Source: a virus
IMG/VR virus record: IMGVR_UViG_3300009512_000010
Location: 62,001 to 126,000 of that record
Length of the DNA stretch: 64,000 nt
Direction: 5' to 3' (one strand)
Made by a program: the position numbers and the translations under genes. Shown in pieces: positions 7,252 to 64,000 of the stretch (its first letter is position 1; every line of letters starts with the position of its first letter). The notes under the pieces were generated by a model. That model saw only the letters and a list, made by a program, of their open reading frames with translations, was not told the DNA's origin and searched no databases.

Positions 7252-7269
7252 GTTCTTGTTATTCCTTGT

Positions 7270-7592: not shown

Positions 7593-7598
7593 AGTTAT

Positions 7599-7627: not shown

Positions 7628-7662
7628 CAGTCTGCGACATTGATTTAATGTTGTGATATATA

Positions 7663-8309: not shown

Positions 8310-8780
8310 TTATTTCGCTTTGTAAAAGATGTGGGTTCCGATTGTTGTTGTTTTATTCATGTATTCTTCAGTAGCCCAATTAGGACTTACGTAGTCTGCG
8401 TGGTAGTGGTCTGCACCACCAGTATTGTCTTCAACACGTTCTCTCAACACATCGTCGGCAATGAGTTTAGCCTTGTGATATGCATAAAGATCCTTGGGAC
8501 TATGATCATCTATCTGCCATGTCCAAGAGAATTGTTTACGAGCGTATACAACTTCGCATACGGTGTTGCCATGTTTAGAGGAATCCACACGGTTCATAGT
8601 AACATGAGCCACTGCGTACTGTCCCTCTTCAGATTCACCACGTGCTTCGTGATACACATTTAATGCCAAGCATTCCTTAGCTTCTGCGTATTCTTTAGTA
8701 ACGATGGTTATACATGCGCCCAACGAAAGCATCATTGCCATCGTCAGGCCACCTGATAGAATGTTTCTGATACGTATCAT
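8310..8780 (-). CDS. SleB/CwlJ-type cell wall hydrolase, probable endolysin
   Basis: A 156-residue peptidoglycan hydrolase of the Hydrolase_2 family. The catalytic-domain opening ECLALNVYHEARGE is at about 36-49, followed by GQYAVAHVTMNRV and FSWTWQIDDHSP. The N-terminus has a hydrophobic segment ending in LSLGAC, which could be a lipobox or a signal-anchor, so it may be exported on its own. The start at 8780 is chosen because it has an AGGGG site and lies about 28 bases after the predicted transcription start. A second copy of the same AGGGGTACTTATGA sequence at 8804 overlaps the promoter. It probably serves in host lysis; an entry-phase virion role is also possible. Confidence 0.82.
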   Translation of the reverse strand: MIRIRNILSGGLTMAMMLSLGACITIVTKEYAEAKECLALNVYHEARGESEEGQYAVAHVTMNRVDSSKHGNTVCEVVYARKQFSWTWQIDDHSPKDLYAYHKAKLIADDVLRERVEDNTGGADHYHADYVSPNWATEEYMNKTTTIGTHIFYKAK

Positions 8781-8814
8781 AAGTACCCCTGTAATTCGCC
8801 TCATAAGTACCCCT

Positions 8815-8843
8815 AATATACTTCTGTTTTTACGACTTGTCAA
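8815..8843 (-). promoter_or_regulatory. Sigma70-type promoter ahead of the lysin gene
   Basis: TTGACA, 17 bases, TATATT on the minus strand. The expected start near 8808 leaves only the ATG at 8780 with a complete ribosome site, which decides the lysin start. Confidence 0.6.
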
Positions 8844-8846
8844 TGA

Positions 8847-9065
8847 CTAAATGTATTCTTTTTCAAGTTTCTTGATACCCAAAGACCAGTTTTCTGCGGC
8901 ATCTTGGATATATCGGATAGAATGGTTTGGAAAGTGTTCTGTGTAAAACATCTTGTCGTTACTATCAAAGTACTTAATGTAACCTCTTTCGGTTTTATAA
9001 TCGAAATGAACTTCACATTTGCCCTTTCCATCTTCAGCTTTGTAGGTTTCGAGTTTTCTACCCAT
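8847..9065 (-). CDS. Small protein of unknown function after thyX
   Basis: A 72-residue soluble protein I do not recognise. It has a charged N-terminus (GRKLETYKAEDGKGK), beta strands around CEVHFDYKTERGYIKYF and a Lys/Glu-rich C-terminal helix. Its start overlaps the end of thyX by eight bases. The overlapping longer frame (8840-9187) was rejected because it lies mostly inside thyX. Confidence 0.6.
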   Translation of the reverse strand: MGRKLETYKAEDGKGKCEVHFDYKTERGYIKYFDSNDKMFYTEHFPNHSIRYIQDAAENWSLGIKKLEKEYI

Positions 9066-9732
9066 CTTGAACGAACTCCTTTGTCATTGGAAATATCTTT
9101 GAGATCTCGACGGCAATGGCACGTGCCAGTTCCATATGTTCTAGTTGAGTTCCGTTGCCGCTTCTCAGTTCTATATAGTGTATCCAAGAACGCAAGGTTG
9201 CGTTTGCAAACAGACGAGATACAGTATTTCCTTCGGGTAGGACAGATCTCGCTTGTTCCTTTGCAATGCCCATTGAGATTGCCCAGTTATATGCCAACTT
9301 AGCTTCGTGGATGATCTGATCTTGTTTCATTCTCCATGCTCTAGCAAGTTCTTTATCCGTATTAGGCACGGAGTTCTGTCGGTTCTTAGTATCTTGCATA
9401 CGTGCTTCTCGAACAACAAATGCCTGTTTCATATCTTGAGGATCTGCATAGCGTTGCGAAAACTCTTGAAAAGACATTGAACGGTGGCGCAACAGTTGAC
9501 GTGCGATATCACGAGTTGTTTCCACACCAAGTGTACACGACACCATCTCCAACGGTGACCAATGTTTATGCTTAACCAAATATCGGATAAGCTTATCGGC
9601 AGTTTCCGTGTTCATTTCATTGGCTGGGTTTGATACCCTAGCACAATAACTAATAAGATCTTGAGCATCTTTGATACCCCCCTCAAACAGTTCTTTTGAG
9701 GGTTGAGGTGTTACTACTGTCCATACTTTCAT
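9058..9732 (-). CDS. thyX: Flavin-dependent thymidylate synthase ThyX
   Basis: Makes dTMP from dUMP using methylene-tetrahydrofolate and FAD/NADPH. The 224 residues contain the ThyX signature RHRSMSFQEFSQRY (the RHRxxSxxxxSxR motif), preceded by HWSPLEMVSCTLGVETTRDIARQLL. Length and motif placement fit the family (about 220-250). It lies four bases after gp41 in the replication operon and supplies nucleotide along with the gp1-like kinase. Many marine T4-like phages carry thyX. Confidence 0.95.
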   Translation of the reverse strand: MKVWTVVTPQPSKELFEGGIKDAQDLISYCARVSNPANEMNTETADKLIRYLVKHKHWSPLEMVSCTLGVETTRDIARQLLRHRSMSFQEFSQRYADPQDMKQAFVVREARMQDTKNRQNSVPNTDKELARAWRMKQDQIIHEAKLAYNWAISMGIAKEQARSVLPEGNTVSRLFANATLRSWIHYIELRSGNGTQLEHMELARAIAVEISKIFPMTKEFVQDG

Positions 9733-50933: not shown

Positions 50934-52862
50934 CTAATTTATATCCCCAGGGTAGCGTTGTGTCCACATTGTAAAGCTATATTTCGTTCCCGAAACAAGT
51001 TCTGTACACTCATGACCGTGTGTGACCATGCCCGGAAACAGAATCATCTTACCACAAGGCACATCATCGTTGTTAACACCCTGTCTTGGGTAGATCAAAG
51101 ACGCACCTTTATAGTCATCATTGAGCTTAACGGATCCTGTAACAAGAGAGGCATCATTGTGCAAAGGCAAACTCTTTTGAGTGTCCACCGAATATCGCAT
51201 AACGAATGCATCACGCATACCATACATTTCAATAGGGTGCCAAAGCTTCTCTACGATTGGTACGATATGTTCTTTCCAATGGGTTTCTAGCTCATTCCAC
51301 AATCCTAGTTCTTTGACACGGATCTCATATGCTGGAAACTTATCTTCTGGCATAGGTGCCCACTTGCCGTGGTTATCACCCATTTCAATCAAACGATCAC
51401 ACTGGCTTTGTGTCATGAAGTCCACAACCATCATGTCCTTTTCAAGCATGTCAACCTTACCGTGATGGGGGATGAACATCGGAGACTGTGGAGTTGTTCC
51501 TAAAGCGGTTTTAGGTTTAGGCAATGCCTTTGTGTATTTGGTGTGCACTTGGCTCCATAGGTTATCAAACTTTACTTTAGCCTCAAACCCACCGTTACCA
51601 TGATATAGACAAGGAACAGTATTCGTGATTGGGTTCCATAGCTCATTACCTACGTCTACTTCTGGCTCGTGCGTTTGGAAGATATATTGTTCATAGTCCA
51701 ACCCTACAGAGAATTTAGTAGTATCGTTTAGCCAGACACGTTGCATGTATAGCTGATCGTCATCATCATCGTTAAGTCGTTCTCCAAAGAAGTCTTTTAA
51801 TGCACCAACCCTACCAATGTATTGTCCACTGTTGAGGTATTTGTAATGAAAGAGGTTGGGTTCTGGATGTAGGCTTTGCATGCTCTCGTCAGGCCAACAG
51901 CTTGCTTCTGCCCCGAATAGGATCTCTACAGAAGCGTCCATATACCGTTTAACGATTTCTTGTAGATTATTTGTAAAGAATACGTCATATGCATCTGTGA
52001 ATAGAAGAATATCGTTTTCGGGCAAGGTGTCGAGATAGTCTCGCACCAAGTTAACTTTATGTCCACCACCAGGGCCTTGCATGTCTGTACCAGCCCAATC
52101 GACATTAGTGCCCAAGTTCTTAACATCAAATCCCATTAGTGCCGCACTGTCATTCAATGCTACACACTTAGATCTATCCGTACCAACCGTAACCGCATGA
52201 ACATTGAAGTTTTGGAACCAATCGTCATGGCTTTGTGGCTCAATGTCAGATCCAAGAGCTTCTCTACTAATCTGTGTCGCAATCTCTACTTTGAGTGCTT
52301 GTACGTTATGTGTCTTTACCTTCTGAGCCAAGACCTCATCTACAGGGATGATCTTTCTGTGGAAACCACTATTAATAAGATCATGCGCCATTTTAACAGT
52401 TAGCATATATGCATGACCATTGTATGGATAGCAAGGCTTAACTAGGTGTTGATTGCCACCTTCTGTGACACCAGTTTCGTTATTCTCGTTGTGACCCAAA
52501 TATAGTAGATCGATATTATGCTCATCCATCCACTCGTGGTATTCGTTCTCTTTCCACTTAAATCTGTCGATCTTAACATCATCTTCGAAGATGATTGTAG
52601 TCTCGTTTAGTTCAACTACTTTCTGCCACGCCTGATAGTGTGATAGGAAGCAACCAACCTCACCCTTTGTAATTCTACGGTTCTTGAATGGATCACGCCA
52701 TTTGTGATTAACACCAAATTCATTGTCTACCATACGTTGGTGATCAATGTCATGACCATCAATAGCAAATACGAATTGATAATCTTCCAACCAACCACAT
52801 TCACCCATAAAGGATCTTTTTCTGTCAGTTCTTCGATTTAGATTAATAACTAGCTTGTGCAT
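50934..52862 (-). CDS. GT25 + PLOD-type glycosyltransferase + 2OG lysyl-hydroxylase-like fusion
   Basis: 642 residues in three parts. (1) About 1-205: a GT25 glycosyltransferase (LVINLNRRTDRK, GCFLSHYQAWQKV, IIFEDDVKI with EDD at 93-95). (2) About 220-440: a region like the glycosyltransferase domain of animal procollagen-lysine hydroxylases (NDILLFTDAYDVFF with DxxD at 290-293, KYLNSGQYIG, DDDDDQLYMQRVW, LDYEQYIFQT). (3) About 470-642: a 2OG-Fe(II) oxygenase with His568-x-Asp570, distal His617 in LFPGMVTHGHECTE and a 2OG-binding Lys627 at +10 where PLOD enzymes have Arg. Animal LH3 and a mimivirus enzyme combine such activities to hydroxylate and glycosylate lysine in collagen-like proteins. 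No collagen-like substrate is seen here. Confidence 0.85.
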   Translation of the reverse strand: MHKLVINLNRRTDRKRSFMGECGWLEDYQFVFAIDGHDIDHQRMVDNEFGVNHKWRDPFKNRRITKGEVGCFLSHYQAWQKVVELNETTIIFEDDVKIDRFKWKENEYHEWMDEHNIDLLYLGHNENNETGVTEGGNQHLVKPCYPYNGHAYMLTVKMAHDLINSGFHRKIIPVDEVLAQKVKTHNVQALKVEIATQISREALGSDIEPQSHDDWFQNFNVHAVTVGTDRSKCVALNDSAALMGFDVKNLGTNVDWAGTDMQGPGGGHKVNLVRDYLDTLPENDILLFTDAYDVFFTNNLQEIVKRYMDASVEILFGAEASCWPDESMQSLHPEPNLFHYKYLNSGQYIGRVGALKDFFGERLNDDDDDQLYMQRVWLNDTTKFSVGLDYEQYIFQTHEPEVDVGNELWNPITNTVPCLYHGNGGFEAKVKFDNLWSQVHTKYTKALPKPKTALGTTPQSPMFIPHHGKVDMLEKDMMVVDFMTQSQCDRLIEMGDNHGKWAPMPEDKFPAYEIRVKELGLWNELETHWKEHIVPIVEKLWHPIEMYGMRDAFVMRYSVDTQKSLPLHNDASLVTGSVKLNDDYKGASLIYPRQGVNNDDVPCGKMILFPGMVTHGHECTELVSGTKYSFTMWTQRYPGDIN

Positions 52863-52887: not shown

Positions 52888-53448
52888 TTAGTCTCTGTAG
52901 AGATACAAATCAACAGGGACGCAGATCCGTAGTTCGGAGTAGTAAGGGTTGACGTGGTGATAAGCGAAACTTGGGAAGATCAAGAAGTCTCCTGTCTCAG
53001 GTTGATGATGATGTCTGTTAAACATTGGATTGAAATATTCGTCATACCCCCGATTGGCATTAGATCTAGGATCGTGTAGCACCAAGTCGCCGCCCGAATT
53101 TTGATCTTCTGCTAGTATATAGAACACGCCAGATAAGTGTGCTCCCGAATGATTGTGAATAGTCATTGAATAGTCTTTACCGTGACCAGTGATCCAACCC
53201 TTTAGCTTGTAGTTGTCCCAATCCTCAATAGAGCAATCAATAGTACTCTTTAGGTAGTCATTAAAAGCACTCTTAACAGTACTATTAAAGGCACTCATAA
53301 CAGCACTCTTATCATCCAATATGTTATATCCACCCAAATCGCTAGGTGGTTCGTTTAGATTGTATGTGCTAAATATATGTTCCACTAAACCAGTGGTGTC
53401 GAACTTTCCTTGACCCATCTGTGTAGGCCATAGATTATGGATATCCAT
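52888..53448 (-). CDS. 2OG-Fe(II) oxygenase
   Basis: 186 residues of the phage/marine 2OG oxygenase type: YSMTIHNHSGAHLSGVFYIL (His for iron), GGDLVLHDPRS, a His-rich insert, then PETGDFLIFPSFAYHHVNPY (distal His) and ELRICVPVDL (2OG-binding Arg). The start is preceded by an AGAAGTGAG site. It sits back-to-back with the radical SAM operon, sharing a 92-base divergent region. The substrate is unknown; protein hydroxylation is plausible by context. Confidence 0.85.
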   Translation of the reverse strand: MDIHNLWPTQMGQGKFDTTGLVEHIFSTYNLNEPPSDLGGYNILDDKSAVMSAFNSTVKSAFNDYLKSTIDCSIEDWDNYKLKGWITGHGKDYSMTIHNHSGAHLSGVFYILAEDQNSGGDLVLHDPRSNANRGYDEYFNPMFNRHHHQPETGDFLIFPSFAYHHVNPYYSELRICVPVDLYLYRD

Positions 53449-53499: not shown

Positions 53500-53528
53500 T
53501 TGACTCTATGTTTCGGGTATGCTAGAAA
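53500..53528 (+). promoter_or_regulatory. Sigma70-type promoter for the plus-strand radical SAM operon
   Basis: TTGACT, 17 bases, TAGAAA; the same -35 as the other plus-strand gene promoter at 33476. It is the only promoter candidate for the 5-kb operon and suggests early expression. Confidence 0.55.
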
Positions 53529-53558
53529 TAGGTATAACAAATGAAAAGAGAGAATCAC

Positions 53559-53843
53559 ATGACTATGATGAACACAGTACTTGACCAAATCAATCGTATG
53601 GACGCTTCAGAAATCAACCGTGTAGTTGAAGCGATCAAATCTCGCCGCAACTCACTGTCTTATGCCACAAACGCTACCTTGCGTGTTGGCGATATTGTCT
53701 CTTGGATGCGCCGTGATGGAAGCACTGTAACAGGATCTGTTAAGAAAGTTAATCAGAAAACAGTTATAGTAAATGAACGTAATAACCCCAATGTTTGGAA
53801 AGTATCTTCAAGCATGCTTACTCCACTGTCTATAGGTGGATAA
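53559..53843 (+). CDS. Small conserved-looking protein heading the radical SAM operon
   Basis: 94 residues. A helical N-terminus (LDQINRMDASEINRVVEAIK) is followed by a KOW/SH3-like beta region (LRVGDIVSWMRRDGSTVTGS, then VNQKTVIVNE and VWKVSSSMLTPL). Proteins of this type occur in other marine phages, so it is probably not a dedicated peptide substrate, although it ends in Gly-Gly. The ATG at 53559 has AGAGAG upstream; an earlier ATG at 53541 is too close to the expected transcript start. The stop overlaps the next start as TAATG. Confidence 0.65.
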   Translation: MTMMNTVLDQINRMDASEINRVVEAIKSRRNSLSYATNATLRVGDIVSWMRRDGSTVTGSVKKVNQKTVIVNERNNPNVWKVSSSMLTPLSIGG

Positions 53844-54307
53844 TGACATTTGACGAATTCTTCGACTTCTTGATGAGTGAAGAATGTTTTAATGACTGTT
53901 CGGTCTCCTTTATTAACAATAGAGGAGAACAACAGTACATAGAGCATGACGATTTATTTGCATATAGGGGCAAGGTGGTTGATCTTTGGTTTAGTGGAGA
54001 TGATACGATTAAGGTAGAGGGATATGAACGTATCCAACCTTATGATGGGACTATCCATATATTCTATGCTCCTACAAATGCTCCTTCATTTCCTGTACAT
54101 ACAGATCCTATAGATATCTATATCGAATGCCTTGATGGGCGTAAGATAATGGAAATTGACGACCAATACGTGATGATAGAAAAGGGAACGAAGATCTTTA
54201 TTCCCGCAGACACACCACACGTTGCGCTCAACTCAGAGAAAGCATTGACATTAAGCTATGGCATTAACGACACAAACACATTCGGTAATCTACGTAAAGA
54301 CTACTGA
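53843..54307 (+). CDS. Cupin/JmjC-like protein with possible Fe(II) site
   Basis: 154 residues. The C-terminal half has a cupin pattern: FPVHTDPIDIYIECLDGRKI (His-x-Asp), IEKGTKIFIPADTPHVALNS (second His) and ALTLSYGIND. The H-x-D...H spacing is like a mononuclear iron or JmjC/cupin oxygenase site. The N-terminal half (FDEFFDFLMSEECF) is unassigned. It is joined to the previous gene as TAATG and overlaps the first radical SAM gene by 50 bases, so it likely acts in the same pathway. Confidence 0.65.
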   Translation: MTFDEFFDFLMSEECFNDCSVSFINNRGEQQYIEHDDLFAYRGKVVDLWFSGDDTIKVEGYERIQPYDGTIHIFYAPTNAPSFPVHTDPIDIYIECLDGRKIMEIDDQYVMIEKGTKIFIPADTPHVALNSEKALTLSYGINDTNTFGNLRKDY

Positions 54308-55289
54308 AACTTGTAATCTTAATTGCAGTCACTGTTTTACTTCTGGTATGAATGGGCGTAAGATCTATTTTGATCACGTGAAGACCGCAAATTGGTGTAA
54401 CGAACTCGACACTGGCTCTAACCAGATCCATTTAGAGTACCATGGTGGTGAGCCTATGCTTGCGCCCATGGCACACCTACGAGAATTCCATGACATCACT
54501 AAAGCTCAATGGGGTGATCGTGCAACTCATGGTATCACAACAAATCTTGTGTTTAAGCTTACCGAAGAGAAACTTGCATTCTTTAGTGAAATCATTACAG
54601 GTGGTAACATCGGCACCTCATGGGATCCTAATATTCGTTTTACTAACGAACATCAAAGGAAGATGTGGGAAAATAATGTTAAGCAGTTGACAGGACTTGG
54701 GCATAGTGTCAAGTGCTTTATCTCTGTATCTAAGGATGTTATTAAACTACAACCGTTGGAGATTGCTGATTATATGGAGTCTCTTGGTGTTGCTGAGATC
54801 TCTTATGAACGACTTACCCATGATGGTAATGCCACAATCAATACGGACATCTTTCCTCATAACTCTGAACTAGATGCTTGGTGGATGCTGATGCATGAAC
54901 AAACTCAAGATCACCCTGTAGAAAACGGCTTTATGGGATCCATCTACGACAAGTTCAACAAAGGGCAGTTCCAGATCGGCACATTCTGTCGTGATTGCGA
55001 ACAAAAGATCCACACTATTAATGCAGACGGTACTGTCGCAGGCTGTCCTAACACCGCACCAACCATGCATTATGGTCATATAGATACACCAGCAAAGGAA
55101 GTAAGATTAAGTCCTAAGCGTATGGAGATCATATCTTGTGAACAGCATGAACGTGATGAACGGTGTTACAAATGTCCAGTCTTTATGTATTGCCATTCTG
55201 ACTGTCATCAGTTACAATGGATGGATGATGTGTGCCCTGCGCCTAAAACATTGATGATGAAGTTAGCGAAAGAGAAGAAATGGATTTAA
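54258..55289 (+). CDS. Radical SAM/SPASM-like protein 1
   Basis: 343 residues. The radical SAM cluster motif CNLNCSHC is Cys19/23/26, followed by HLEYHGGEPML (GGE motif for SAM binding) and HGITTNLVF. The C-terminus has CRDCEQKIHTINADGTVAGC and CYKCPVFMYCHSDC, typical of auxiliary [4Fe-4S] clusters (SPASM). Such enzymes commonly modify peptides or act as maturases. The frame overlaps its upstream neighbour by 50 bases and the next radical SAM gene by ten. Substrate unknown. Confidence 0.92.
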   Translation: MALTTQTHSVIYVKTTETCNLNCSHCFTSGMNGRKIYFDHVKTANWCNELDTGSNQIHLEYHGGEPMLAPMAHLREFHDITKAQWGDRATHGITTNLVFKLTEEKLAFFSEIITGGNIGTSWDPNIRFTNEHQRKMWENNVKQLTGLGHSVKCFISVSKDVIKLQPLEIADYMESLGVAEISYERLTHDGNATINTDIFPHNSELDAWWMLMHEQTQDHPVENGFMGSIYDKFNKGQFQIGTFCRDCEQKIHTINADGTVAGCPNTAPTMHYGHIDTPAKEVRLSPKRMEIISCEQHERDERCYKCPVFMYCHSDCHQLQWMDDVCPAPKTLMMKLAKEKKWI

Positions 55290-56317
55290 TCGTAAAGCCA
55301 ACCGAAGCGTGTAACTTCAAGTGTACATTTTGCTCGTCAACAGATATCGATCCCAATGAGGTTGGTCTGTTAGACTTGAGCTATATCTATAGGTTCTTAG
55401 AAAGGTTTCCAGAGACTAACACAATTATTGTTAATGGTGGTGACCCTCTTATGGTCAAGCCACAGTATTATCAAGATCTAATTGACCACCTTAATGAGCA
55501 TGATTACCCAGCAAGCATTAGCTTTACGTCCAACCTTTGGCCTTTCCTAATGAAACCTAAGAAGTGGTTACCCATCTTTCAGAACGAACGATTTGGTTGT
55601 GCCACATCATTTCAGTATGGTGGCGGTAGACTAAAAGGCGATTATTCAGAGTTCACAGAGGCAGACTTTTGGATGGTGTCTAATGCCATGTTGAAGCATA
55701 CAGGTGAACGTCCAGATTTTATCGCAGTTATTACAGAAGAGAATGAGCATCTCGCCATTAAGAATGTAGAACTAGCAAAAGAGATGGGCGTCGAGTGTAA
55801 GTTGAACTATGCTATGGCTTCTGGTGTACAGGGATCTACGTATCAATTAAGCAAGATCTACGAAACATATCTTGAGATTTATGACCGTGGTCTAGCCGAT
55901 CATGAGTTCAACACTAAGCAAATGATGAAACGTCTTGGGGGATCTTCTACATCATGCCCACAGAATAGAGCGTGTGATGAAGGTATCCGTGCATTTAACC
56001 CAGGAGGTGATTACTACTCTTGTGGTTCATTTGCAGATGATATGGATTATCCTATCGACTTCGAAACTGAGATGGCAGGAAAGTTGCAAACACCACTGCA
56101 ACACGACCCCAACATTCAGACAATGAAGATGGCTTGTTACACATGCCCTATGTTTGAAATCTGCAATGGTTGTAAGAAAACTGTGCGTGATATGAAACGT
56201 GAAGGTACTGTTGAAGGTCATTGTAGGCAGATGAAAGCATTGGCACCTCGTATCCTTGCTACCAATAATATGAGTCCTGATGGAGTGACGCCCTATGTCG
56301 ATGAATCTATCAATTAA
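55280..56317 (+). CDS. Radical SAM/SPASM-like protein 2
   Basis: 345 residues. CNFKCTFC at Cys11/15/18, IIVNGGDPLM (GGD), and FTSNLWPFL. C-terminal cysteines include SCPQNRACDEG, YYSCGSFADD and CYTCPMFEICNGCKK, with GHCRQM as the last ligand candidate. The layout resembles radical SAM maturases with auxiliary clusters. It overlaps both flanking radical SAM genes by 10 and 23 bases, so all four are probably co-translated. Confidence 0.92.
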   Translation: MDLIVKPTEACNFKCTFCSSTDIDPNEVGLLDLSYIYRFLERFPETNTIIVNGGDPLMVKPQYYQDLIDHLNEHDYPASISFTSNLWPFLMKPKKWLPIFQNERFGCATSFQYGGGRLKGDYSEFTEADFWMVSNAMLKHTGERPDFIAVITEENEHLAIKNVELAKEMGVECKLNYAMASGVQGSTYQLSKIYETYLEIYDRGLADHEFNTKQMMKRLGGSSTSCPQNRACDEGIRAFNPGGDYYSCGSFADDMDYPIDFETEMAGKLQTPLQHDPNIQTMKMACYTCPMFEICNGCKKTVRDMKREGTVEGHCRQMKALAPRILATNNMSPDGVTPYVDESIN

Positions 56318-57224
56318 CCCAACTTACTATTGTAACTTCTCTTGCGACTTTTGTTACTTGACAAAGCAACAGTTAAATGATAGACACAAGATAAACCCAA
56401 TGTGGTTACAACATTCTATGGGTCAAATAACAGATCCTATAACTCATGTTGATTTATATGGCGGTGAGATTGGATTACTAACACCAGAGTATTATTATTC
56501 GATCAAAGAGGTGATTAGGAGATACTATGGTGGTAGTATCCACATCAACACAAATCTGTCAGCATTTCCAGACTTCTTCCGTGATGATGATGTTACCCTA
56601 TCGGTATCTTATGACTTCCACGCAAGAGAGAAAGAACAGTTTGTTCTAAATAACATGATGAATGCTAATAAGGATCTTGCTGTCCTTATCCTTGCATCGC
56701 CTAAAGTATTGAAGATGGATGTGGAGTTTATGATCTTCACTCTTAACATGGTTTCTAATGTCAAGTCGGTAGAGATCAAGCCTTACTCTATCAACCAAGC
56801 CAATGCATTTGATGTTACTCATAAAGACTTTGAGGACTTCGTTATTAGGTTTGATGAGGCTAAGACTAAGAAGAACTTTGACTTCCAAAACATACACAAC
56901 ATTTATAGAAGTATAGATAAAGAGTACAATGCCTTTTCCAATGACCACGTCTATATCACACCATCTGGTAAGTTTGGCGTATTGGAGTTTGATAAGCATG
57001 ATAAAGAGTACTTCAAGGAGTATAGCACATATTATGAATATAAACAATGGGCAGATAACGAAGCTGTTGATAATCTTAGCGACATTTGTCGTAGCTGTAC
57101 CTATTTCGGTACATGTCTTACCGAGCACTATCGGTACGTATTGGATTTAGACAACAGTTGCAATGGATATAAAGGATTACTAGATTACTATGGAAAATTG
57201 GAAAGCGAGACAGAAGGCGTATAA
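56295..57224 (+). CDS. Radical SAM protein 3
   Basis: 309 residues. CNFSCDFC at Cys13/17/20, VDLYGGEIGLL (GGE), and HINTNLSAF. The C-terminal cysteines CRSCTYFGTCLTEHYR and NSCNGYKG suggest one auxiliary cluster with fewer ligands than proteins 1 and 2. ATGs at 56295 and 56301 are both possible. The C-terminal end overlaps the region before the next gene. Confidence 0.9.
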   Translation: MSMNLSINPTYYCNFSCDFCYLTKQQLNDRHKINPMWLQHSMGQITDPITHVDLYGGEIGLLTPEYYYSIKEVIRRYYGGSIHINTNLSAFPDFFRDDDVTLSVSYDFHAREKEQFVLNNMMNANKDLAVLILASPKVLKMDVEFMIFTLNMVSNVKSVEIKPYSINQANAFDVTHKDFEDFVIRFDEAKTKKNFDFQNIHNIYRSIDKEYNAFSNDHVYITPSGKFGVLEFDKHDKEYFKEYSTYYEYKQWADNEAVDNLSDICRSCTYFGTCLTEHYRYVLDLDNSCNGYKGLLDYYGKLESETEGV

Positions 57225-57228
57225 TCAT

Positions 57229-57588
57229 ATGACAACAAACCACCGTGACGATTTGACGGATGTTGATGTATTGAATAGGCCAGAATTTATTGTAGAAGAT
57301 GCTTTGATGCACTTCGATAAGAGAGTGGATCAGTGGATCTACCCAGCGAAGTCGTTCTTCGTTGCAATCTGCTATGCCAATTGGATAGCCGAAGACTTTG
57401 GTGAGCAGTTCTATGATGTACTAAACTATAACGAATTACTACCAGACGATCCACACTTCCTACCATATGAGAGAAGTAAAGAGATCTATGATGAGATCCT
57501 TTCTAAAGTTAATTTTGATAATACTAATGGTATGGTTCCAGATGTCTATGAGTATTACCAAGAGGAATTCATGATTGGACAACTTTGA
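57229..57588 (+). CDS. Small acidic protein within the radical SAM operon
   Basis: About 119 residues from ATG 57229 (an ATG at 57190 would add 13 residues and overlap the previous gene by 35 bases). Acidic and aromatic: HFDKRVDQWIYPAKSFFVAI, YANWIAEDFGEQFYDVLNYN and a terminal YEYYQEEFMIGQL. There is no Cys-rich or Gly-rich core. It is unknown, and a candidate partner or substrate-binding protein because it sits between radical SAM genes 3 and 4. Confidence 0.6.
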   Translation: MTTNHRDDLTDVDVLNRPEFIVEDALMHFDKRVDQWIYPAKSFFVAICYANWIAEDFGEQFYDVLNYNELLPDDPHFLPYERSKEIYDEILSKVNFDNTNGMVPDVYEYYQEEFMIGQL

Positions 57589-58657
57589 CTTCACCAAACA
57601 GCTACTGGAATCTAAACGTCCAGACATAGCCGAGATTGAGATGACACTCTTTGAGAACTGTCACCTCAACTGTTCTTTTTGTCACCACGACAAGAAGTCT
57701 ACAGTAGGCTTGTCTCGTGAAGAGATCTTCTCCAAGATCCCTCTAGTAGAAGAGCATGTTATTAAGATGAAGAACCGTGCAGACGTTATTCAGATCAATA
57801 TGCTTGGTGGAGAATTGTTTCAAGACCGAATATCTGAGTGGGCTTATGAGGTCTACTACGACTTCTTAGTTGAGATTAAGAAGATCTATGATGAACATAA
57901 GCAGAACATTAAAGTAGTTTGGGTAACATCCTTTCAGTTTAGTAAACGTGAGAGAGTTCAAAAACTACTTGATGATTTGAATGCAATAGACATTCCATCC
58001 TATATTATCTGTTCTTATGACTTTGATGGTAGACCTGTCAAAGGACCTTATGGCAAGAACATAGAATACTTTGCTGATTATATCACATCTATTAATATGG
58101 TTGCAACCACTATTTCTATTAAAAAGTTTATGGCAGATGAGGACGAGTACTTTCACTATCTGTATAATAAGTTTGATAACTTCTACTTTGATGATTACAT
58201 TCCTGATCGTGGTTATGACTATATGATCCCATCAGATAGTGAGTATCTTGAGTTCCTAAAGTTTGTGTATCATAACTATCCAGACATCAATCCTATCAAG
58301 GATCTGATCTATAACGAAACAAATCATATGCATTGCTTGGCTCTTAACAAGGTTACAATCTTTCCTGATAACTCTACATCAAACTGTAGATGGGATAGAT
58401 ATGACCAACGTGACTTCAACACGAAGTATGAGCCTAAAGATAATGCTGGTATGATGCAAGCTTATATGGATGAGAATGGTTGCTTGTCATGTAAGTGGTA
58501 CAACAAGTGTGGCTTTAGATGTTATACACAATGGGATTGGAAGAACCGTGAACGAGATCTGCCCGACTGTATAATGCGCATGTGGTTTAACTACATGGAC
58601 AAGACAGGACAAAACCAAATCACAGGATTTGATTACGTGGGAACAAACACTCCGTAA
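57575..58657 (+). CDS. Radical SAM/SPASM-like protein 4 (TTG start)
   Basis: 360 residues. CHLNCSFC is Cys29/33/36, MLGGELFQD follows (GGE) and WVTSFQFS replaces the usual strand. The C-terminus has HCLALNKVTIFPDNSTSNCR, CLSCKWYNKCGFRCYTQWDW and DLPDCIMR. The first in-frame ATG is at residue 23, too close to the cluster, so the TTG at 57575, with AGAGGA eight bases upstream, is preferred. It converges with and overlaps protein 5 by 38 bases. Confidence 0.88.
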   Translation: MDNFDFTKQLLESKRPDIAEIEMTLFENCHLNCSFCHHDKKSTVGLSREEIFSKIPLVEEHVIKMKNRADVIQINMLGGELFQDRISEWAYEVYYDFLVEIKKIYDEHKQNIKVVWVTSFQFSKRERVQKLLDDLNAIDIPSYIICSYDFDGRPVKGPYGKNIEYFADYITSINMVATTISIKKFMADEDEYFHYLYNKFDNFYFDDYIPDRGYDYMIPSDSEYLEFLKFVYHNYPDINPIKDLIYNETNHMHCLALNKVTIFPDNSTSNCRWDRYDQRDFNTKYEPKDNAGMMQAYMDENGCLSCKWYNKCGFRCYTQWDWKNRERDLPDCIMRMWFNYMDKTGQNQITGFDYVGTNTP

Positions 58658-59642
58658 CACCGTGATGCTCCATGTAGGATTGCACACCCTTATCGATACA
58701 CGTCATCATATGAGCACATCCAGAACAACTATCTGTATTGGCAGTGTATGCTAATTGCGACCCAAAGTTGTCGCTTTTGGCACTTATCCAAGATTCAATA
58801 TCATTCTCATCATGTACTTTAAACTTGTCTGTGCCTATCTTAACAATATCGTAGACGAATGGTGTCCAGAAGAAGTTGCCATTACAGTATGTGTAGTTAA
58901 GTTCTAAGGATCCGCCCTGTGCTTGATCGATGATAGTAGAGGGAAAAGCGTCTTCTGCCCAATCATCTAGCTTCTTCCACTTGTCTATTAGATGTTTCTG
59001 TACCTTAAACTTATCCGCTCTAAGAAACGATGGGTTAAGAGTTAAGATCGTGTCAAACTCATCGTCAGCAATATCTGAGAACTCTATGACTTTGGCATTG
59101 GTCTTATCGTCATTACCCATATTCATTACAAGATAGTAATTCAGATCGTCATCGAATAGGTTTAGCTTATCGATCATATCTTTGTATCCATGGGGGAACT
59201 TTTTAGGATCGATTGCTATGTTAGCATCGTACATGAACCCATCTATTTTGGGTATGCTGTTAAGTAATTCGATAACCTCCGTTGAGATGTTGGTTAGAGT
59301 CGTCACGAATTGTATAGTAGAAACCTTACTCAAACACTCTCGAAATGTTTCATCTCGCAATAACTCTATGACGTTGTTGTTGCCGAATAGATCAGTTGGT
59401 CCGATATTGATAGTGGAAACCCTATACCCATTATTATTGAACAAGTCAATAGCATTGTTTAATCTTTCGTAGGATCCCATGTTAGTGCCTAGTTTGTTTA
59501 CAAAACAACCCACACACTTGAACTCACATCCTGACAGAACTTCAGCATTGAATATAACCTTGATCTCGTGTCCTTCGTTAAAGGATAGATCAAAGTCTGC
59601 ATCAGCCTGAGCTTCTTTCTTGTTGTTAGTAACTATTCCCAT
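58620..59642 (-). CDS. Radical SAM protein 5 (GC-x3-C-x-GCF family)
   Basis: 340 residues. CEFKCVGCF with Cys39/43/46, then INIGPTDLFGNNNVIELLRD, the family element shared with proteins 6-8. The C-terminus has CSGCAHMMTC and TECLFPRNQ (C-x2-C-x5-C-x(n)-C). The ATG at 59642 has GAGG six bases upstream and overlaps the end of protein 6 by 17 bases; an earlier ATG (59675) has a weak site. Confidence 0.88.
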   Translation of the reverse strand: MGIVTNNKKEAQADADFDLSFNEGHEIKVIFNAEVLSGCEFKCVGCFVNKLGTNMGSYERLNNAIDLFNNNGYRVSTINIGPTDLFGNNNVIELLRDETFRECLSKVSTIQFVTTLTNISTEVIELLNSIPKIDGFMYDANIAIDPKKFPHGYKDMIDKLNLFDDDLNYYLVMNMGNDDKTNAKVIEFSDIADDEFDTILTLNPSFLRADKFKVQKHLIDKWKKLDDWAEDAFPSTIIDQAQGGSLELNYTYCNGNFFWTPFVYDIVKIGTDKFKVHDENDIESWISAKSDNFGSQLAYTANTDSCSGCAHMMTCIDKGVQSYMEHHGVTECLFPRNQIL

Positions 59643-60759
59643 GGTAATCCTCGTTATCGAATAGAGCAATAACATCTTTGTTTAATATACATTCAGATCT
59701 TCCCTCAAACATCGTATCCATAACTTTGGGTATCAATCTGTTGGAGCACACGTTGAGGTACTTACACGTTCCGCATTCTTTATTAGAACTATTTATTATC
59801 TGATCTGTAACGACTTGGTGTTTGTAATTTAAGATACCTTCTACTGTATGTGTAGTGATCTCGAAGTCATCTTTATAGATCTGAGCATTCTCATAGATGA
59901 ATGGTGACGCATATAGTTTGCCGTTGTGGATGTTCACCACCGCATAGTGAAATGCTTTGTGAGATAGATCCCCCTGTAAGAAGTGAAACTTGTTCTTAAA
60001 ACGATTGACATCACTAGACAAGTTTGTCAACATATCATTCCAAGCGAATAGTTTGTCTCCATGCTTGGTAGAATGGTTAAAGGATCTGACAACAGAGGGT
60101 AAGATTTCAATGACCGTGTCGTAGGTTTCACGTATGTAGTCGATAGCTTCGTATAGCCTGTCTTCGATACCCTCTACAATGTTAGTTGCCATAGAGATCT
60201 CAAAGTCCAACGAACTCTCTTTGAAGTTCATCACTCTGTTTCTCAATGCTTTCCTGTATCTTTTATCATCCAATACACGCACAAGATCTAAAGCAATCTG
60301 CACATCCCAAGACTCAACAACCTTACCAAGAGGAGACTTTTCGATAGCCTTGATCTTACCTAGAATATCATCTTCCGATAGAGACCCCATGATAGAACAG
60401 TTATGTTGAATGTTTCTATTACCTTCTGGTATCATAGAGATGGCATCAGATAATCTGGCATTGTGTATGATTTCTTCTAGGTTTTCTGCACCATAGAAGT
60501 CTGTAGGTCCGATAACAATATCGTCTAACACGACATCAGTTCTACCATGTAATTCGTATGCCAGATTGTGAAACATCTTAATTGACTTGGGATTCCAATT
60601 ACCTCTACGTTTAACAAAACAACCAGGACACATGTAAGAGCACCCTTCAAGTAATTCTAAAGTAACTTGGATCTTGTACTGCGTCATTGAGGATACTGAA
60701 GTAAACTCTTCTCCCACACCACCGTGCTTAACAATGTCTTTCCAACTATTATTTAACAT
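59626..60759 (-). CDS. Radical SAM protein 6 (GC-x3-C-x-GCF family)
   Basis: 377 residues. LELLEGCSYMCPGCFVKRRG with Cys40/44/47, then DDIVIGPTDFYGAENLEEII. The body has ISMATNIVEGIEDRLYEAID and an aromatic AFHYAVVNIHNGKLYASPFI. The C-terminal auxiliary motif is CGTCKYLNVC with SECILNKDV. It overlaps protein 7 by 11 bases. Closest in sequence to protein 7. Confidence 0.9.
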   Translation of the reverse strand: MLNNSWKDIVKHGGVGEEFTSVSSMTQYKIQVTLELLEGCSYMCPGCFVKRRGNWNPKSIKMFHNLAYELHGRTDVVLDDIVIGPTDFYGAENLEEIIHNARLSDAISMIPEGNRNIQHNCSIMGSLSEDDILGKIKAIEKSPLGKVVESWDVQIALDLVRVLDDKRYRKALRNRVMNFKESSLDFEISMATNIVEGIEDRLYEAIDYIRETYDTVIEILPSVVRSFNHSTKHGDKLFAWNDMLTNLSSDVNRFKNKFHFLQGDLSHKAFHYAVVNIHNGKLYASPFIYENAQIYKDDFEITTHTVEGILNYKHQVVTDQIINSSNKECGTCKYLNVCSNRLIPKVMDTMFEGRSECILNKDVIALFDNEDYHGNSY

Positions 60760-61912
60760 AGGAGATGTCCTTAATTCGTTCTAGTTCTGGATCGTCATCT
60801 GTTGTAACAAGAAACCTCTTACGATAACCCTTCTTATCGTTTTCAACAGAATAGTCATCCCACTGATACATCTTCTGAGCAGGTGCATTATAGTTATGTA
60901 TATGTTCCATCATATTCTGCTTAGGAGCAATACAACGATCAACTCCAAGGTAATCTCTGAGTAGAATAATCTTTCTATTGTAACAAGACATCATCAAGGG
61001 ACAAGTTTCGCACTCTGTGCCCTTGACCCTTTCCAACTGAGATTGTACAATAGGAAGCACATCGTCAAAGTTATCCACTTTAAACATCTCATGGTACAAT
61101 GCCATGTTTTCGTACATAAACGGCGAAATGAACCATTCGCCCTTTTTATAGTTTAGTACGGTATAGTTCATGCCACCGTGTGAGTGGTCTACCATTATGT
61201 TATTTAATTCTGTTTCTTTATAAGCACTTAGCTCGTTAAAGAAGTCATTAAACTTGTCTAATGTATCTAATATTAGTTTAGGCTTGTGAGAACGTGAAAC
61301 AGACGGTACAAAGTCTAATATCGTTTTAAAGCGTTCTATTGCACTTTTATGCAGTTTAACGTAGTCTAGGCCATAATCACGTATATTGACCACAAACGTA
61401 TATGTCACTTCATGTTCTAGGTTTTTATCAATGTACTCCAACATCTTGTGAATATGCTGTACATAATCCTCATCAAAGAACTTGTTAACATTCGTTGCGA
61501 TACCAATTTCAATCTCAGTATCTATGTTAATATTATTTGTTATGAAAGCAACCCATCGTGGAAGATCCCCATCAATCAGTGTGCTGACAAATGCAAGAAT
61601 GGGTGAGTTCTCATTAATGATATCGACTAGAGATGGCATGACCTCATAGAAGTTTTCGGACGCAAGAAAGTCTGTAGGTCCGATAAGGATCTCGTCAACC
61701 AAGATGCCTCTATCAGTTATGTCTCGTATGAAGTCTTTGGCTTTATGGATCTGATGTTCATCACTAGCATTACCTCTGCGATGCACAAAACATCCCGGAC
61801 ATTTGTGATGACAACCATCTAGGATATCAAGCTGAAGTTTAACCGCCGAGACTGGTTTAGTTTGCGTCTCTGTGGTTAGCTCGTAATATAAGTTGTTCTT
61901 AATTAACGGCAT
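60749..61912 (-). CDS. Radical SAM protein 7 (GC-x3-C-x-GCF family)
   Basis: 387 residues. LDILDGCHHKCPGCFVHRRG with Cys34/38/41, DEILIGPTDFLASENFYEVM, GIATNVNKFF, and GGMNYTVLNYKKGEWFISPF. The auxiliary motif is CETCPLMMSC with DRCIAPKQN. A C-terminal extension of about 50 residues (RKRFLVTTDDDPELERIKDI) is not present in proteins 5, 6 and 8. It overlaps protein 8 by 14 bases. Confidence 0.9.
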   Translation of the reverse strand: MPLIKNNLYYELTTETQTKPVSAVKLQLDILDGCHHKCPGCFVHRRGNASDEHQIHKAKDFIRDITDRGILVDEILIGPTDFLASENFYEVMPSLVDIINENSPILAFVSTLIDGDLPRWVAFITNNINIDTEIEIGIATNVNKFFDEDYVQHIHKMLEYIDKNLEHEVTYTFVVNIRDYGLDYVKLHKSAIERFKTILDFVPSVSRSHKPKLILDTLDKFNDFFNELSAYKETELNNIMVDHSHGGMNYTVLNYKKGEWFISPFMYENMALYHEMFKVDNFDDVLPIVQSQLERVKGTECETCPLMMSCYNRKIILLRDYLGVDRCIAPKQNMMEHIHNYNAPAQKMYQWDDYSVENDKKGYRKRFLVTTDDDPELERIKDISYVK

Positions 61913-62924
61913 GCATATATTCTTTCAAGGCAACACAAGTGTTCAACTTCCTTGACTTCATATACACGTGTATGTTTCTTTCTGCGCAACTCATTAGGTA
62001 TTCGCATGTGTTACAATCGTCTACTGTCTTTGCATACTCTAGGTTAGTGCCCAACCATTCCTGATCCATTGTAGTTTGAAACTCAGGTGTTCTCTGAATG
62101 ATTGCGTCATATAAAAATGGATTGATGTATAATTTGCCGTTGTAGAAACTATAGTTCTGACAGCCATATCCATTAAACCTAGCATCAAAGAATGTGTATA
62201 AGTTCCTCCACTCATCATTTATCTTCTGCTTACGCAGATCTGCCCTAAACATATCAAGAAACTTATTGACCTTACCACGTGCATTCTTGTCTGTCAAGAA
62301 AGAAGGTGCGATGACTATGGGTGCGTTAAAGTCTTCCTTGACTTTGGCACACAGATCATTATATCCTATTCTGTCAAACAAATCAGGAGTGTAGTTAACT
62401 CTGAACTGAACAGATCCAATGGTAAACATCTTTATGTTTTCAAGGAAGTTGGGGTCAAGGTCATCATCAAGATACGCCTCAACATCTAACACAATCTTAA
62501 AGTCGATATCTGGAATTCTATTGATGTTACGATAGATCTGCCAAATCATATCAAGTTTAGGCTTGACAACCTTTGGGTCTTGTAATAGTGTAGATGTAAA
62601 TCCGACACCACTTATAGCATACAGGTCTGTCATCGATGGGTGTGTCATCACCTCATCAAAGTTCTGAGCATCAAAGATGTCAGTTGGACCTATAGTAATT
62701 TCATCTGGATAGAACTGTCCCTTACACAACTCATCGTATAGAGTAGCCATGTGATCAGGTGATGTCAAGTTCTTTCTTGGGATAAAGCATCCGGGACACA
62801 TCTGATCACAACCATGGAGAATATCCAAGTTGATCTCTGTGCGTAGGAAATCGGTATTAACAGGGCTTATGCCATGAACGTAACGATAGTACCCTGCTTC
62901 TGTTGCATTAAGCTTTGTTATCAT
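61899..62924 (-). CDS. Radical SAM protein 8 (GC-x3-C-x-GCF family)
   Basis: 341 residues. LDILHGCDQMCPGCFIPRKN with Cys39/43/46, DEITIGPTDIFDAQNFDEVM, KIVLDVEAYLDDDL and GCQNYSFYNGKLYINPFLYD. The auxiliary motif is CNTCEYLMSC with NTCVALKEY. It overlaps the previous gene by 17 bases. The four proteins of this group form a tandem paralogous family. Confidence 0.9.
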   Translation of the reverse strand: MITKLNATEAGYYRYVHGISPVNTDFLRTEINLDILHGCDQMCPGCFIPRKNLTSPDHMATLYDELCKGQFYPDEITIGPTDIFDAQNFDEVMTHPSMTDLYAISGVGFTSTLLQDPKVVKPKLDMIWQIYRNINRIPDIDFKIVLDVEAYLDDDLDPNFLENIKMFTIGSVQFRVNYTPDLFDRIGYNDLCAKVKEDFNAPIVIAPSFLTDKNARGKVNKFLDMFRADLRKQKINDEWRNLYTFFDARFNGYGCQNYSFYNGKLYINPFLYDAIIQRTPEFQTTMDQEWLGTNLEYAKTVDDCNTCEYLMSCAERNIHVYMKSRKLNTCVALKEYMHAVN

Positions 62925-63666
62925 CTAGAATCAACATGAAATCGTCGGGAAAGAATGATACGATCTGATCCGTAATCTTAGTCTCACACATAATATGATA
63001 GAGATCTTTGCCGAAATATTTGGGGGAGTCGTTAAACACTTGTTTATTATATTCAATCGACAATCCGTTTTTACTCAAGATTAGTAGAAGCGCATCATAG
63101 CCTGTAGTGAGAAGTCTGGCAATATTAGGTCCACACGTAGCTGGTTTATCAACTACCTTGATGTCTTCAACCAGTTCTTTTAGATTTTTTTCGGTTAGCT
63201 TCATATCATCGTCAAGCCCATCGTATAGTTTAGTTAGGGCAAATGGTACTGAAGATGCAACTGTGGCGATTAAATCGTCAACCAATTGTTCATTATCTTC
63301 AATAAACTTATCGATAAGTTTTGGTGGGAACAGATATAATAGTTGGCTCTCTTGTTCACCAATGTCATGTCTATATTTGAACTTAATAATAAGAACAATG
63401 ATCCTAGCCAATAGAGGACAGTCAACCATAAAGTCTGATTTGATATACGCTTTAATCAAGTCTTCGTCAATAGAAGAGAACGTTGTCTTAAAGTTAGTGT
63501 TAGCCAAATAGATGATAATGTGCTGTGCAGACAACTTCTCTTTACTCTTAGCATAATCAACCCAAAGAACGTATTCTTCAAGTTCACTCTTGTCTTTATA
63601 GATCTGTACTAAGTGTTGAGGAGATAGTGGTAACTCATAACACGTACTCTCGTCTGGAGTTGTCAT
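62908..63666 (-). CDS. Unknown helical protein upstream of the minus-strand radical SAM genes
   Basis: 252 residues, mainly helical, with no motif I recognise: LSAQHIIIYLANTNFKTTFS, LLARIIVLIIKFKYRHDIGE and NIARLLTTGYDALLLILSKN. The start at 63666 has TAAGGA upstream and 13 bases after the previous stop; upstream in-frame codons run into that gene. It is co-transcribed with the radical SAM genes. Role unknown. Confidence 0.6.
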   Translation of the reverse strand: MTTPDESTCYELPLSPQHLVQIYKDKSELEEYVLWVDYAKSKEKLSAQHIIIYLANTNFKTTFSSIDEDLIKAYIKSDFMVDCPLLARIIVLIIKFKYRHDIGEQESQLLYLFPPKLIDKFIEDNEQLVDDLIATVASSVPFALTKLYDGLDDDMKLTEKNLKELVEDIKVVDKPATCGPNIARLLTTGYDALLLILSKNGLSIEYNKQVFNDSPKYFGKDLYHIMCETKITDQIVSFFPDDFMLILDDNKA

Positions 63667-63679
63667 AATATAGTATTCC

Positions 63680-64000
63680 TTACAATGGGTACTTGTGGAT
63701 AAGATATGGAATGCGGTTTTGTCTCTTAGAGAAGAACTGCACATCTGTATTTATCAGCTTCAAATCTGCGGTTAGATTGTCCATGTCAAAGTCATTCTGC
63801 AATACCTTGCGCACGATAGGAAACACATTCTTAAACTCTGTGTATAGATCCATATATTCCCAACCATCTGCGTCACTATCTGCCTTAGATTGGTGAGCCG
63901 CAAGGAATGCAGTATCGTCTTTAACCAAGTTCCACAACTCTTCTAGTTGATAGAAAGCGGCAGTATAGTTTCCAGCATTAGCCTTAGTAACATAACAGGA
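63680..64000 (-). CDS. Unknown protein, 5' end outside the window
   Basis: The last 106 residues of a gene that continues beyond the right edge. The visible part reads SCYVTKANAGNYTAAFYQLE, then ELWNLVKDDTAFLAAHQSKA with DSDADGWEYMDLYTEFKNVF, ending HKYPL. Soluble and charged; no family recognised. It lies upstream of the 63666 gene in the same orientation. An internal TTG at 63937 is not needed as a start because the frame is open to the edge. Confidence 0.55.
   Translation of the reverse strand, partial: SCYVTKANAGNYTAAFYQLEELWNLVKDDTAFLAAHQSKADSDADGWEYMDLYTEFKNVFPIVRKVLQNDFDMDNLTADLKLINTDVQFFSKRQNRIPYLIHKYPL

Follow-up and report, generated by a model that had tools for sequence, protein, structure and literature searches.

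A cluster of radical SAM genes in a T4-like marine phage belongs to a conserved set that travels with a Cys/His C-terminal protein tail, its candidate substrate

Accumulations of radical S-adenosylmethionine (rSAM) genes in phages have been noted since 2010, with no substrate given in the available portions of the accounts. Campylobacter phages CP220 and CPt10 are described as encoding 11 and 12 rSAM proteins, which were interpreted as metabolic (PMC2853527), the T4-like marine viral genome TARA_ERS488813_N000010 has 12 rSAM genes that are treated among iron-sulfur genes (PMC5332604), and Aeromonas phage 332-Vera carries eight in a structural cluster (PMC12390700). Parts of the gene set considered here are listed without function for Burkholderia phages FLC6 and S13, and some rSAM genes are reported for Ralstonia phages RP12 and RP31; none of these accounts, in the portions available, names a target, a tail motif or a substrate. 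The Hxs systems have an H-x-S motif and the enzymes HxsB and HxsC, and aromatic-x-Asn cyclophanes are discussed alongside them (PMC9062424, available in part). Bdellovibrio MAT fibres are predator surface fibres that recognize prey, 13 of 21 of which end in an S74 domain (PMC10769870, also available in part). Here we analyze a 64,000-nucleotide stretch (hereafter the window) comprising bases 62001 to 126000 of the 159,934-base virus record IMGVR_UViG_3300009512_000010, so that a record position equals the window position plus 62000. The window carries eight rSAM genes, and a sequence-only reading of it had stated that it knew of no described phage system with this many; given the 11, 12, 12 and eight of the phages above, that statement was wrong as to number. 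From sequence comparisons we consider it probable that the genes belong to a phage-encoded maturation system, similar to those for ribosomally synthesized and post-translationally modified peptides (RiPPs), that modifies the C-terminal tail of two small fibre-associated proteins.

The eight open reading frames (ORFs), of 309 to 387 amino acids, occupy window positions 54258 to 62924 and overlap one another, four on the plus strand and four on the minus strand in convergent orientation. Each contains a Cx3Cx2C motif within its first 75 residues and Cx2Cx5C within its last 90, and both motifs are present in exactly 8 of the 68 little-overlapping window ORFs of at least 90 amino acids. In a residue-shuffle control, ORFs with the N-terminal motif numbered 0.025 on average and those with both motifs 0.0. 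Profile hidden Markov models (HMMs) built without the window recover all eight enzymes (1e-22 to 6e-172). The motifs, gene overlaps and convergent layout, together with the accompanying cupin and small protein of unknown function, bear out what the sequence-only reading had described. The enzymes form five families, namely rA, rB, rC and rD on the plus strand and rE, represented by four paralogues (W5 to W8), on the minus strand. The count of eight holds for the window, whereas the cluster extends past its right edge to nine enzymes and the whole record has about 14 rSAM genes, of which five lie elsewhere (L024 3195-4097; L023 632-1576, 6639-7319, 7665-8498 and 8491-9168, in the numbering of the stretches so labeled). 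Likewise, the earlier statement that no RiPP precursor was found stands inside the window, from which the strict tail pattern described below is absent, but two candidates lie 2.0 to 2.7 kb to its right:

Record 126786 to 127964, minus strand, outside the window: W9, ninth enzyme, family rE, motif CEQGCLGC; the start is a chosen ATG.
Record 127966 to 128352, minus strand, outside the window: tag protein 2, 128 amino acids, ending CHSSCHTSCHTSRGRR.
Record 128352 to 128738, minus strand, outside the window: tag protein 1, 128 amino acids, ending CHSSCHTSCHTSRGRR.

In both tag proteins the tail stands directly before the stop codon. The two genes are directly upstream of W9, with a 1-base overlap between tag 1 and tag 2 (TAATG) and a 1-base gap between tag 2 and the W9 ATG, and they are preceded on the same strand by two collagen-like tail-fibre genes. 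Exact patterns recovered only these two copies of the tail from the record, and tag protein 1 has no match in NCBIfam.

The tail consists of C-H-x-S/N repeats followed by SRGRR at the very C-terminus. We scanned for it at the DNA level with the pattern TGYCAY-N6-TGYCAY-N6-TGYCAY-N6-MGNNNNMGNMG, which yielded at least 120 stretches in IMG/VR (a lower bound) and 88 in GTDB, searched with one genome per species, and we then applied a protein-level criterion of CH..CH..CH..R.RR followed by a stop. A total of 156 distinct tag proteins was assembled, with 133 from IMG/VR, 17 from genomes, four from named phages and two from the window's own record. At positions left free by the pattern, these proteins have S/N at position 4 in 150, S/N at position 8 in 152, S/A/N at position 12 in 156 and G/S at position 14 in 153. 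Because the Ser and Arg residues of the tail are spelled by both codon families with mixed synonymous codons across the 156 proteins, it is the protein sequence of the tail that is conserved. Three H-x-S/N units are present in 137 of the 156 and the SRGRR end in 129, and one locus (L060) has a four-unit tail, CHSNCHSNCHSNCHTNRSRR. The bodies that carry the tail are diverse, as 151 of them form 13 single-linkage groups; a remote relationship joins the short and long body sets (profile probability 98.8%), and the bodies from Bacteriovorax-type genomes are related to the long set (96.4%) but not to the short set (1.5%).

The tail and the enzymes mostly occur together in these collections. A complete C-terminal tail is present in 115 of the IMG/VR stretches, at least 120 in number, and in 17 of the 88 genome stretches, and families rA to rE are found at 109 of the 115 and 15 of the 17 (124 of 132 tagged loci). 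In contrast, stretches that match the DNA pattern without encoding a complete C-terminal tail have rSAM families in only one of five cases in IMG/VR and 0 of 71 in genomes, and in the single exception (L144) the tail is cut by the end of its DNA. Note that an earlier family count covered 76 of 80 IMG/VR loci (4 chance-match loci dropped) plus 5 earlier loci, and that an earlier genome-locus count took 80 of the 88; the final counts use all 120 and all 88. Two loci are counted among the 17 tagged genome loci and stand outside the 156 proteins, namely L161 (CHRLCHGRCHRRRRRR, which looks like a chance match) and L195 (a short frame with no enzyme). The association was also examined from the enzyme to the tail. 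Among 322 confirmed rB relatives in IMG/VR the best 80 were kept, and 50 whole records of these were examined, those left out being mostly short contigs. The pattern is present in 30 of the 50, compared with 0 of 50 for a reversed-pattern control, and the 20 records without it all end inside the cluster on the tail-gene side, as judged from contig ranges and gene order. A co-encoded putative precursor with a conserved core tied to modifying enzymes, one of the marks of a RiPP system, is what these sequences contain. Loci L032 and L047 are tag loci for which only rA was found in the DNA examined, and L060 has three rA-like genes beside its four CHxN units.

The same set is present in named phages as well as in IMG/VR, and its genes are conserved together rather than being scattered homologues of unrelated enzymes, as the sequence-only reading had allowed they might prove to be. 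By using tblastn with rA and with rB, we recovered the same seven records from six phages: Phosso, Atu_ph07 (two records), FLC6, FLC8, SURPRISE13 and DT01. FLC6 and SURPRISE13, which we take to be the published S13 because the gene numbers agree, carry both rA and rB. Among the matches there is no Campylobacter phage for rA or rB, and one for rC at E 0.1. The tag protein itself gave no tblastn match in named phages because the bodies diverge, and the tails were then found by neighborhood and pattern. In the four phages whose regions were examined, the cupin, rA and a tag protein of 178 to 306 amino acids are consecutive, with the tag gene directly after rA, followed by h278 (and h367 in two phages), rD, rB and rC with other small genes between; rE precedes rD in SURPRISE13 and follows rC in DT01. 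The tag proteins of the four end in CHSSCHTSCHGSRGRR, CHTSCHTSCHSARGRR, CHTSCHASCHSSRSRR or CHSSCHASCHNSRSRR. The 357-amino-acid fibre of the window phage resembles, over a C-terminal stretch, the fibre encoded upstream of the cluster in Phosso and Atu_ph07 (36-39% identity, E ~2.5e-15). For Atu_ph07, the available part of Attai et al. 2018 (PMC6102473) places the virion proteins mostly in coding sequences (CDS) 31-76, 170-215 and 284-329. The tag protein, gp170, has the first number of the virion cluster CDS 170-215, and the last, gp215, belongs in both numberings to the major head protein; this suggests that gp170 was detected among the virion proteins, for which the number alone is not proof. 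A candidate for a degenerate rE between rD and rB in Phosso and Atu_ph07 (L027 14189-15097; L028 14155-15057) was rejected, as it has neither Cx3Cx2C nor a profile link to rE.

A second setting is provided by predatory bacteria. Among 80 of the 88 genome loci, eleven are tagged and have enzymes, and six of these come from assemblies named Bacteriovorax, Bacteriovoracaceae, Halobacteriovoraceae or Bdellovibrionaceae; rB is present in all six assemblies and in four other genomes searched alongside. In the order of the Bacteriovorax assembly, 13 of 129 genomes have rB (E up to 1e-30), and the strict tail pattern occurs in 5 of these 13 and in none of the 116 genomes outside them. Of the eight rB genomes that lack the strict pattern, seven have variant tails ending in SRGRR; for the eighth (L335), the sequence begins within the cluster and no tail can be read. 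The variants are CHGNFPPPCHGSRGRR (four genomes), CHTNVPTPPPCHASRGRR, CHSNHCSHSNHGSRGRR and CHSSHSSHSSHSSRGRR; in each, every His opens an H-x-S/N unit while the number of Cys residues drops from three to two or one. The tail of L336, from the same order, is a pure H-S-S repeat. In one genome (G162) the set resides on a 4.15-Mb contig, and by eye only, no phage structural genes were seen around the set in the contigs inspected. In two clusters a neighboring protein ends in an S74 chaperone, one of them with a prepilin N-terminus above the Pfam cut-off; similar-looking pilin-like/S74 genes are found in six more clusters (L329 to L334, one confirmed by BLAST), and no such gene was noted in L324, L335 or L336. 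In Bacteriovorax-type clusters, the pilin-like/S74 gene is adjoined by related proteins of 184-209 amino acids that end in ..GRHWVK(V/I)K or ..GRHWVQVK:

L321 3250-3804, L322 5695-6324, L329 426-1010 and L333 14715-15299: GRHWV-ending proteins, no Pfam match in the two tested.

Phage families are matched by the portal, sheath, terminase, DNA polymerase and major head protein of the record, which is that of a T4-like phage of about 160 kb, a marine virus of bacteria. Its head protein is closest to that of Phage C48C1 (68% identity), then to those of Methylophilales and Pelagibacter phages, with T4-like cyanophages further off. The gene set within the window is as follows (HMM values are from models built without the window, which recover every window family except h367):

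53846 to 54307 (listed ORF from 53795), plus strand: small cupin/JmjC-like protein; Pfam JmjC_2 1.8e-5, HMM 1.2e-20.
54258 to 55289, plus strand: rA, radical SAM/SPASM protein, CNLNCSHC, SPASM cysteines; Pfam SPASM 7e-4 and Radical_SAM 1.8e-3, both below cut-off; NCBIfam SPASM 5.6e-7, above cut-off; nearest DarE/CbpB/PapB; HMM 1.3e-117.
55280 to 56317, plus strand: rB, radical SAM protein, CNFKCTFC; Pfam Radical_SAM 3.5e-7, above cut-off; nearest NCBIfam model DynA, 6e-13.
56295 to 57224, plus strand: rC, radical SAM protein, one auxiliary set Cx2Cx5Cx14C; Pfam 2.1e-4, below cut-off.
57190 to 57588, plus strand: small conserved partner of unknown function, phrog_20737; PHROG 2.3e-36, HMM 2.9e-30.
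57575 to 58657, plus strand: rD, radical SAM protein, CHLNCSFC; Pfam 8.7e-4, below cut-off; HMM 1.4e-85.
58620 to 59675, minus strand: W5, rE paralogue, CEFKCVGC; phrog_31457 1.4e-7, HMM 9.4e-35.
59626 to 60759, minus strand: W6, rE paralogue, CSYMCPGC; phrog_31457 3.2e-10, HMM 1.5e-32.
60749 to 61912, minus strand: W7, rE paralogue, CHHKCPGC; Pfam Radical_SAM 6.5e-4, below cut-off; phrog_31457 1e-8, HMM 2.1e-29.
61899 to 62924, minus strand: W8, rE paralogue, CDQMCPGC; phrog_31457 1.4e-5, HMM 1.1e-22.
62908 to 63744 (start possibly 63666), minus strand: h278, conserved partner of unknown function; HMM 7.7e-13.
63680 to 64000, minus strand, cut by the window end and running to record 126783: h367, partner of unknown function (ORF L022 1681-2784).

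By motif and profile match, rA to rD belong to the radical SAM superfamily. All four match phrog_1802, annotated as 'radical SAM domain-containing protein' (6.5e-19 to 5.7e-54), and Pfam Radical_SAM (E 3.5e-7 to 1.8e-3, only rB being above the cut-off), and profile comparison links the four to one another. The four minus-strand proteins match phrog_31457, a family of unknown function, and only W7 has a Pfam Radical_SAM match (E 0.00065, below the cut-off). The provisional assignment of rE to the rSAM enzymes rests on a moderate profile link to rD (probability 87%, E 3.6e-6; rE is hardly linked to rA or rB), this one weak Pfam match and its invariant motifs, with Cx3Cx2C in 8 of the 8 rE sequences used and Cx2Cx5Cx16-18C in all. 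In NCBIfam, rA scores 29.9 bits with TIGR04085 (SPASM; cut-off 27) and rB 21.1 bits, below that cut-off; the Pfam SPASM score of rA is 20.3, below 21.5. Both rC and rE have a single auxiliary cysteine set, and rE has either no NCBIfam match or weak NrdG matches only. The best NCBIfam neighbors of rA and rB are the peptide maturases DarE, DynA, CbpB, PapB and AmcB (E 6e-13 to 5e-9). In four named jumbo phages the identity of rB is ~56-61%. The h278 family is present at 99 of the 115 tagged IMG/VR loci; its predicted model (predicted local distance difference test score, pLDDT, 91.1) gave no clear fold match (best Foldseek E 0.92; best VIA-align Z 4.9 over 68 residues), a result that excludes no family. 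The h367 of the window was not recovered by an HMM from its supposed relatives, and its family name is tentative.

We propose as the substrate the C-terminal tail borne by both small proteins encoded alongside the tail fibres, which rA to rD and the rE paralogues would modify within infected cells, either while virions assemble or beforehand. The sequence-only reading had suggested modification of a virion or host protein, and a virion-associated target is the best reading of that suggestion, given the likeness of rA and rB to SPASM maturases and the conserved Cys/His tail that travels with the set. That the tail is a substrate of the enzymes at all we consider probable, and it is the part of which we are most confident. 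The modified unit would be H-x-S/N, for example through a His-to-Ser/Asn cross-link of the three-residue cyclophane type, as this unit is constant and is kept where Cys is lost; this is a first guess at the chemistry that we hold to be somewhat doubtful. Possible alternatives or additions are Cys thioethers, or hydroxylation by the cupin or by 2-oxoglutarate (2OG) enzymes, and the tail cysteines might be cross-linked or might serve metal or disulfide binding. The SRGRR sequence may be the part recognized by the enzymes, h278, h367 and the 57190 protein may act as adaptors or chaperones, and the cupin may be an accessory oxygenase. The finished tail would form a rigid, resistant contact point of the fibre or tail tip for the host envelope, a use at the host-contact tip to which we give even chances. 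As a tentative synthesis, radical-SAM-built cross-links on H-x-S/N tails at phage fibre tips, exchanged with predators that use related fibres to seize prey, might constitute a previously unrecognized class of modification. What the sequences themselves establish is the gene set and its conservation, the conserved tail and its place at the C-terminus, and the neighboring fibre genes; action of the enzymes on the tail, its chemistry, the roles of the partner proteins and a part in host contact are inferred from these.

Several observations weigh against this proposal. No modification of the tail has been observed so far. The scores of rA and rB with peptide-maturase models are far below the cut-offs, the second-best NCBIfam match of rB is anaerobic sulfatase maturase (1.4e-9), and among PDB entries rB is closest to sulfatase maturases and lysine 2,3-aminomutase. 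In the stretch examined, no enzyme is found at six of the tagged IMG/VR loci and at two of the tagged genome loci; three of the six (L057, L061 and L107) are on records with rB further off. Because near-copies of the window phage are among the IMG/VR contigs, counts do not represent independent events. The rE copy number varies, with one in SURPRISE13, two in DT01 and none found in the Phosso and Atu_ph07 regions, and the tag bodies of the latter two phages show no profile relation to the short, long or Bacteriovorax-type sets. The tag proteins span 116-364 amino acids, larger than usual RiPP precursors, and no protease, transporter or RiPP recognition element was recognized in the gene set, for which no dedicated search was made. 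Moreover, the body fold of a close relative of the tag proteins (L106, 128 amino acids; pLDDT 76.8, tail 52-62) had no PDB or BFVD match at E <=0.001, and hence the placement at a fibre tip rests on gene neighborhood.

In an alternative explanation, the tail would be an unmodified metal-binding tip (Zn, Fe or haem) or an oligomerization device, with the enzymes acting on another virion protein such as the fibres and the linkage reflecting a shared structural block. Cys/His repeats fit metal binding, and the phage has other likely fibre modifiers, namely a PLOD-like glycosyltransferase and a 2OG oxygenase to the left of the cluster, with collagen-like fibres in the record. However, tail and enzymes are also linked outside phages, in Bacteriovorax-type genomes where the flanking fibre genes differ, and tails that have fewer Cys residues yet keep H-x-S/N suit plain metal binding less, so we regard this explanation as unlikely. 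The maturase similarity and repeat core could also be those of a free, bacteriocin-like peptide cleaved from the tag protein and released at lysis or against competitors, for which RGRR could be the processing site. This is quite improbable, as the conserved SRGRR ends the protein instead of separating body from core, the virion cluster of Atu_ph07 starts, in the available part of its description, at the number of the tag gene, and the undedicated inspection mentioned above recognized no transporter or protease.

The published interpretation of the CP220/CPt10 genes, and the discussion of the 12-rSAM T4-like genome among iron-sulfur genes, as far as these sources are available, favor auxiliary metabolic genes for host cofactor, iron-sulfur or small-molecule metabolism (PMC2853527; PMC5332604), and four further rSAM genes of the record do reside in an island with carbamoyltransferase and aminotransferase genes. 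The window set is instead tied specifically to the tail gene, rA and rB are nearest to peptide maturases and rE finds at most weak NrdG matches, which makes a metabolic role very improbable. Nothing direct speaks for a host protein or surface peptide as the target, with the tag proteins as decoys, carriers or adaptors, apart from the earlier reading having kept a host protein open; since predator-type genomes have the set too, in several cases next to pilin-like/S74 genes of their own, which argues for a self-encoded target, we consider this very improbable.

The phage also encodes a 642-amino-acid protein in which a PLOD (collagen lysyl hydroxylase) glycosyltransferase domain (1.3e-45) is combined with a GT25 domain (window 50934-52862, minus strand), adjoined by a 2OG-Fe(II) oxygenase gene (window 52888-53448, minus strand), and collagen-like GxKGQKG tail fibres (L022 4740-7517); the PLOD-like protein and the oxygenase may constitute a second fibre-modifying system. 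In the island mentioned above (L023 632-12941, record ~140.6-153 kb), the four further rSAM genes are accompanied by genes for a carbamoyltransferase and a DegT aminotransferase and, by eye, for proteins resembling PP-loop, nitroreductase and glycosyltransferase enzymes; the island perhaps serves glycan or small-molecule synthesis. Two of its rSAM genes (6639-7319 and 8491-9168) are each followed by a short overlapping Cys-containing ORF (7309-7665 and 9149-9442), which looks like the C-terminal part of the enzyme, as in split genes or frameshifts. A transfer-messenger RNA (tmRNA) gene is predicted at window 7231-7624 (minus strand), with the tag ANNNFAPSELRLAA and the label tmRNA*, which we take to denote the permuted type.

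If the enzymes do modify the tail, a large new set of rSAM enzymes would have a defined target, and components of virions would be added to the products of RiPP-like chemistry. Views of how these phages recognize their hosts would need revision to include a feature that sequence-based engineering of tail fibres cannot see. Given the occurrence in Bacteriovorax/Bdellovibrio-type bacteria, a single modification would connect the adsorption of phages with the attachment of predators to prey, with virus and predator sharing RiPP-like chemistry at their contact tips. The conserved C-terminal tail is in any case a concrete and checkable candidate substrate that is also present in culturable phages. 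A literature search, which had bioRxiv and most subscription journals outside its scope, retrieved no paper describing the tagged substrate or this system and none containing any of six tail strings.

SPASM RiPP pathways act on small peptides with one or a few rSAM enzymes. Their maturases (DarE for darobactin, DynA for dynobactin, PapB for ranthipeptide, AmcB for cyclophane, and CbpB) share with the enzymes described here an rSAM core and C-terminal auxiliary-cluster cysteines, but here four to nine enzymes stand beside a larger fibre-associated protein. The Hxs systems, in the available part of their description, are alike in that a target with H-x-S units is encoded beside at least two rSAM enzymes (PMC9062424), and HMM comparisons yield a weak likeness of rA to HxsB (1.3e-6) and of rB to HxsC (6.6e-6). 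However, the scores of 27.4 bits against a cut-off of 370 (HxsB) and 25.2 against 267.9 (HxsC) are below those expected of equivalogs, and the target here ends in SRGRR, usually has a Cys before each His, is served by five enzyme families and occurs in a phage setting. An HxsA-like target is approached by the 137 of 156 tag proteins with three H-x-S/N units, but these have the Cys residues and SRGRR, and only L336 has a pure HSS repeat. Many MAT fibres of Bdellovibrio end in S74, and two tested Bacteriovorax-type tag clusters sit beside S74 proteins; the tag protein, however, is a separate gene, and the term 'Radical SAM' does not occur in the main text of the MAT fibre work (PMC10769870). Judged by sequence, the chemistry class and the logic of maturases with a repeat core appear to be of a known kind, and the target, the setting and the composition appear to be new.

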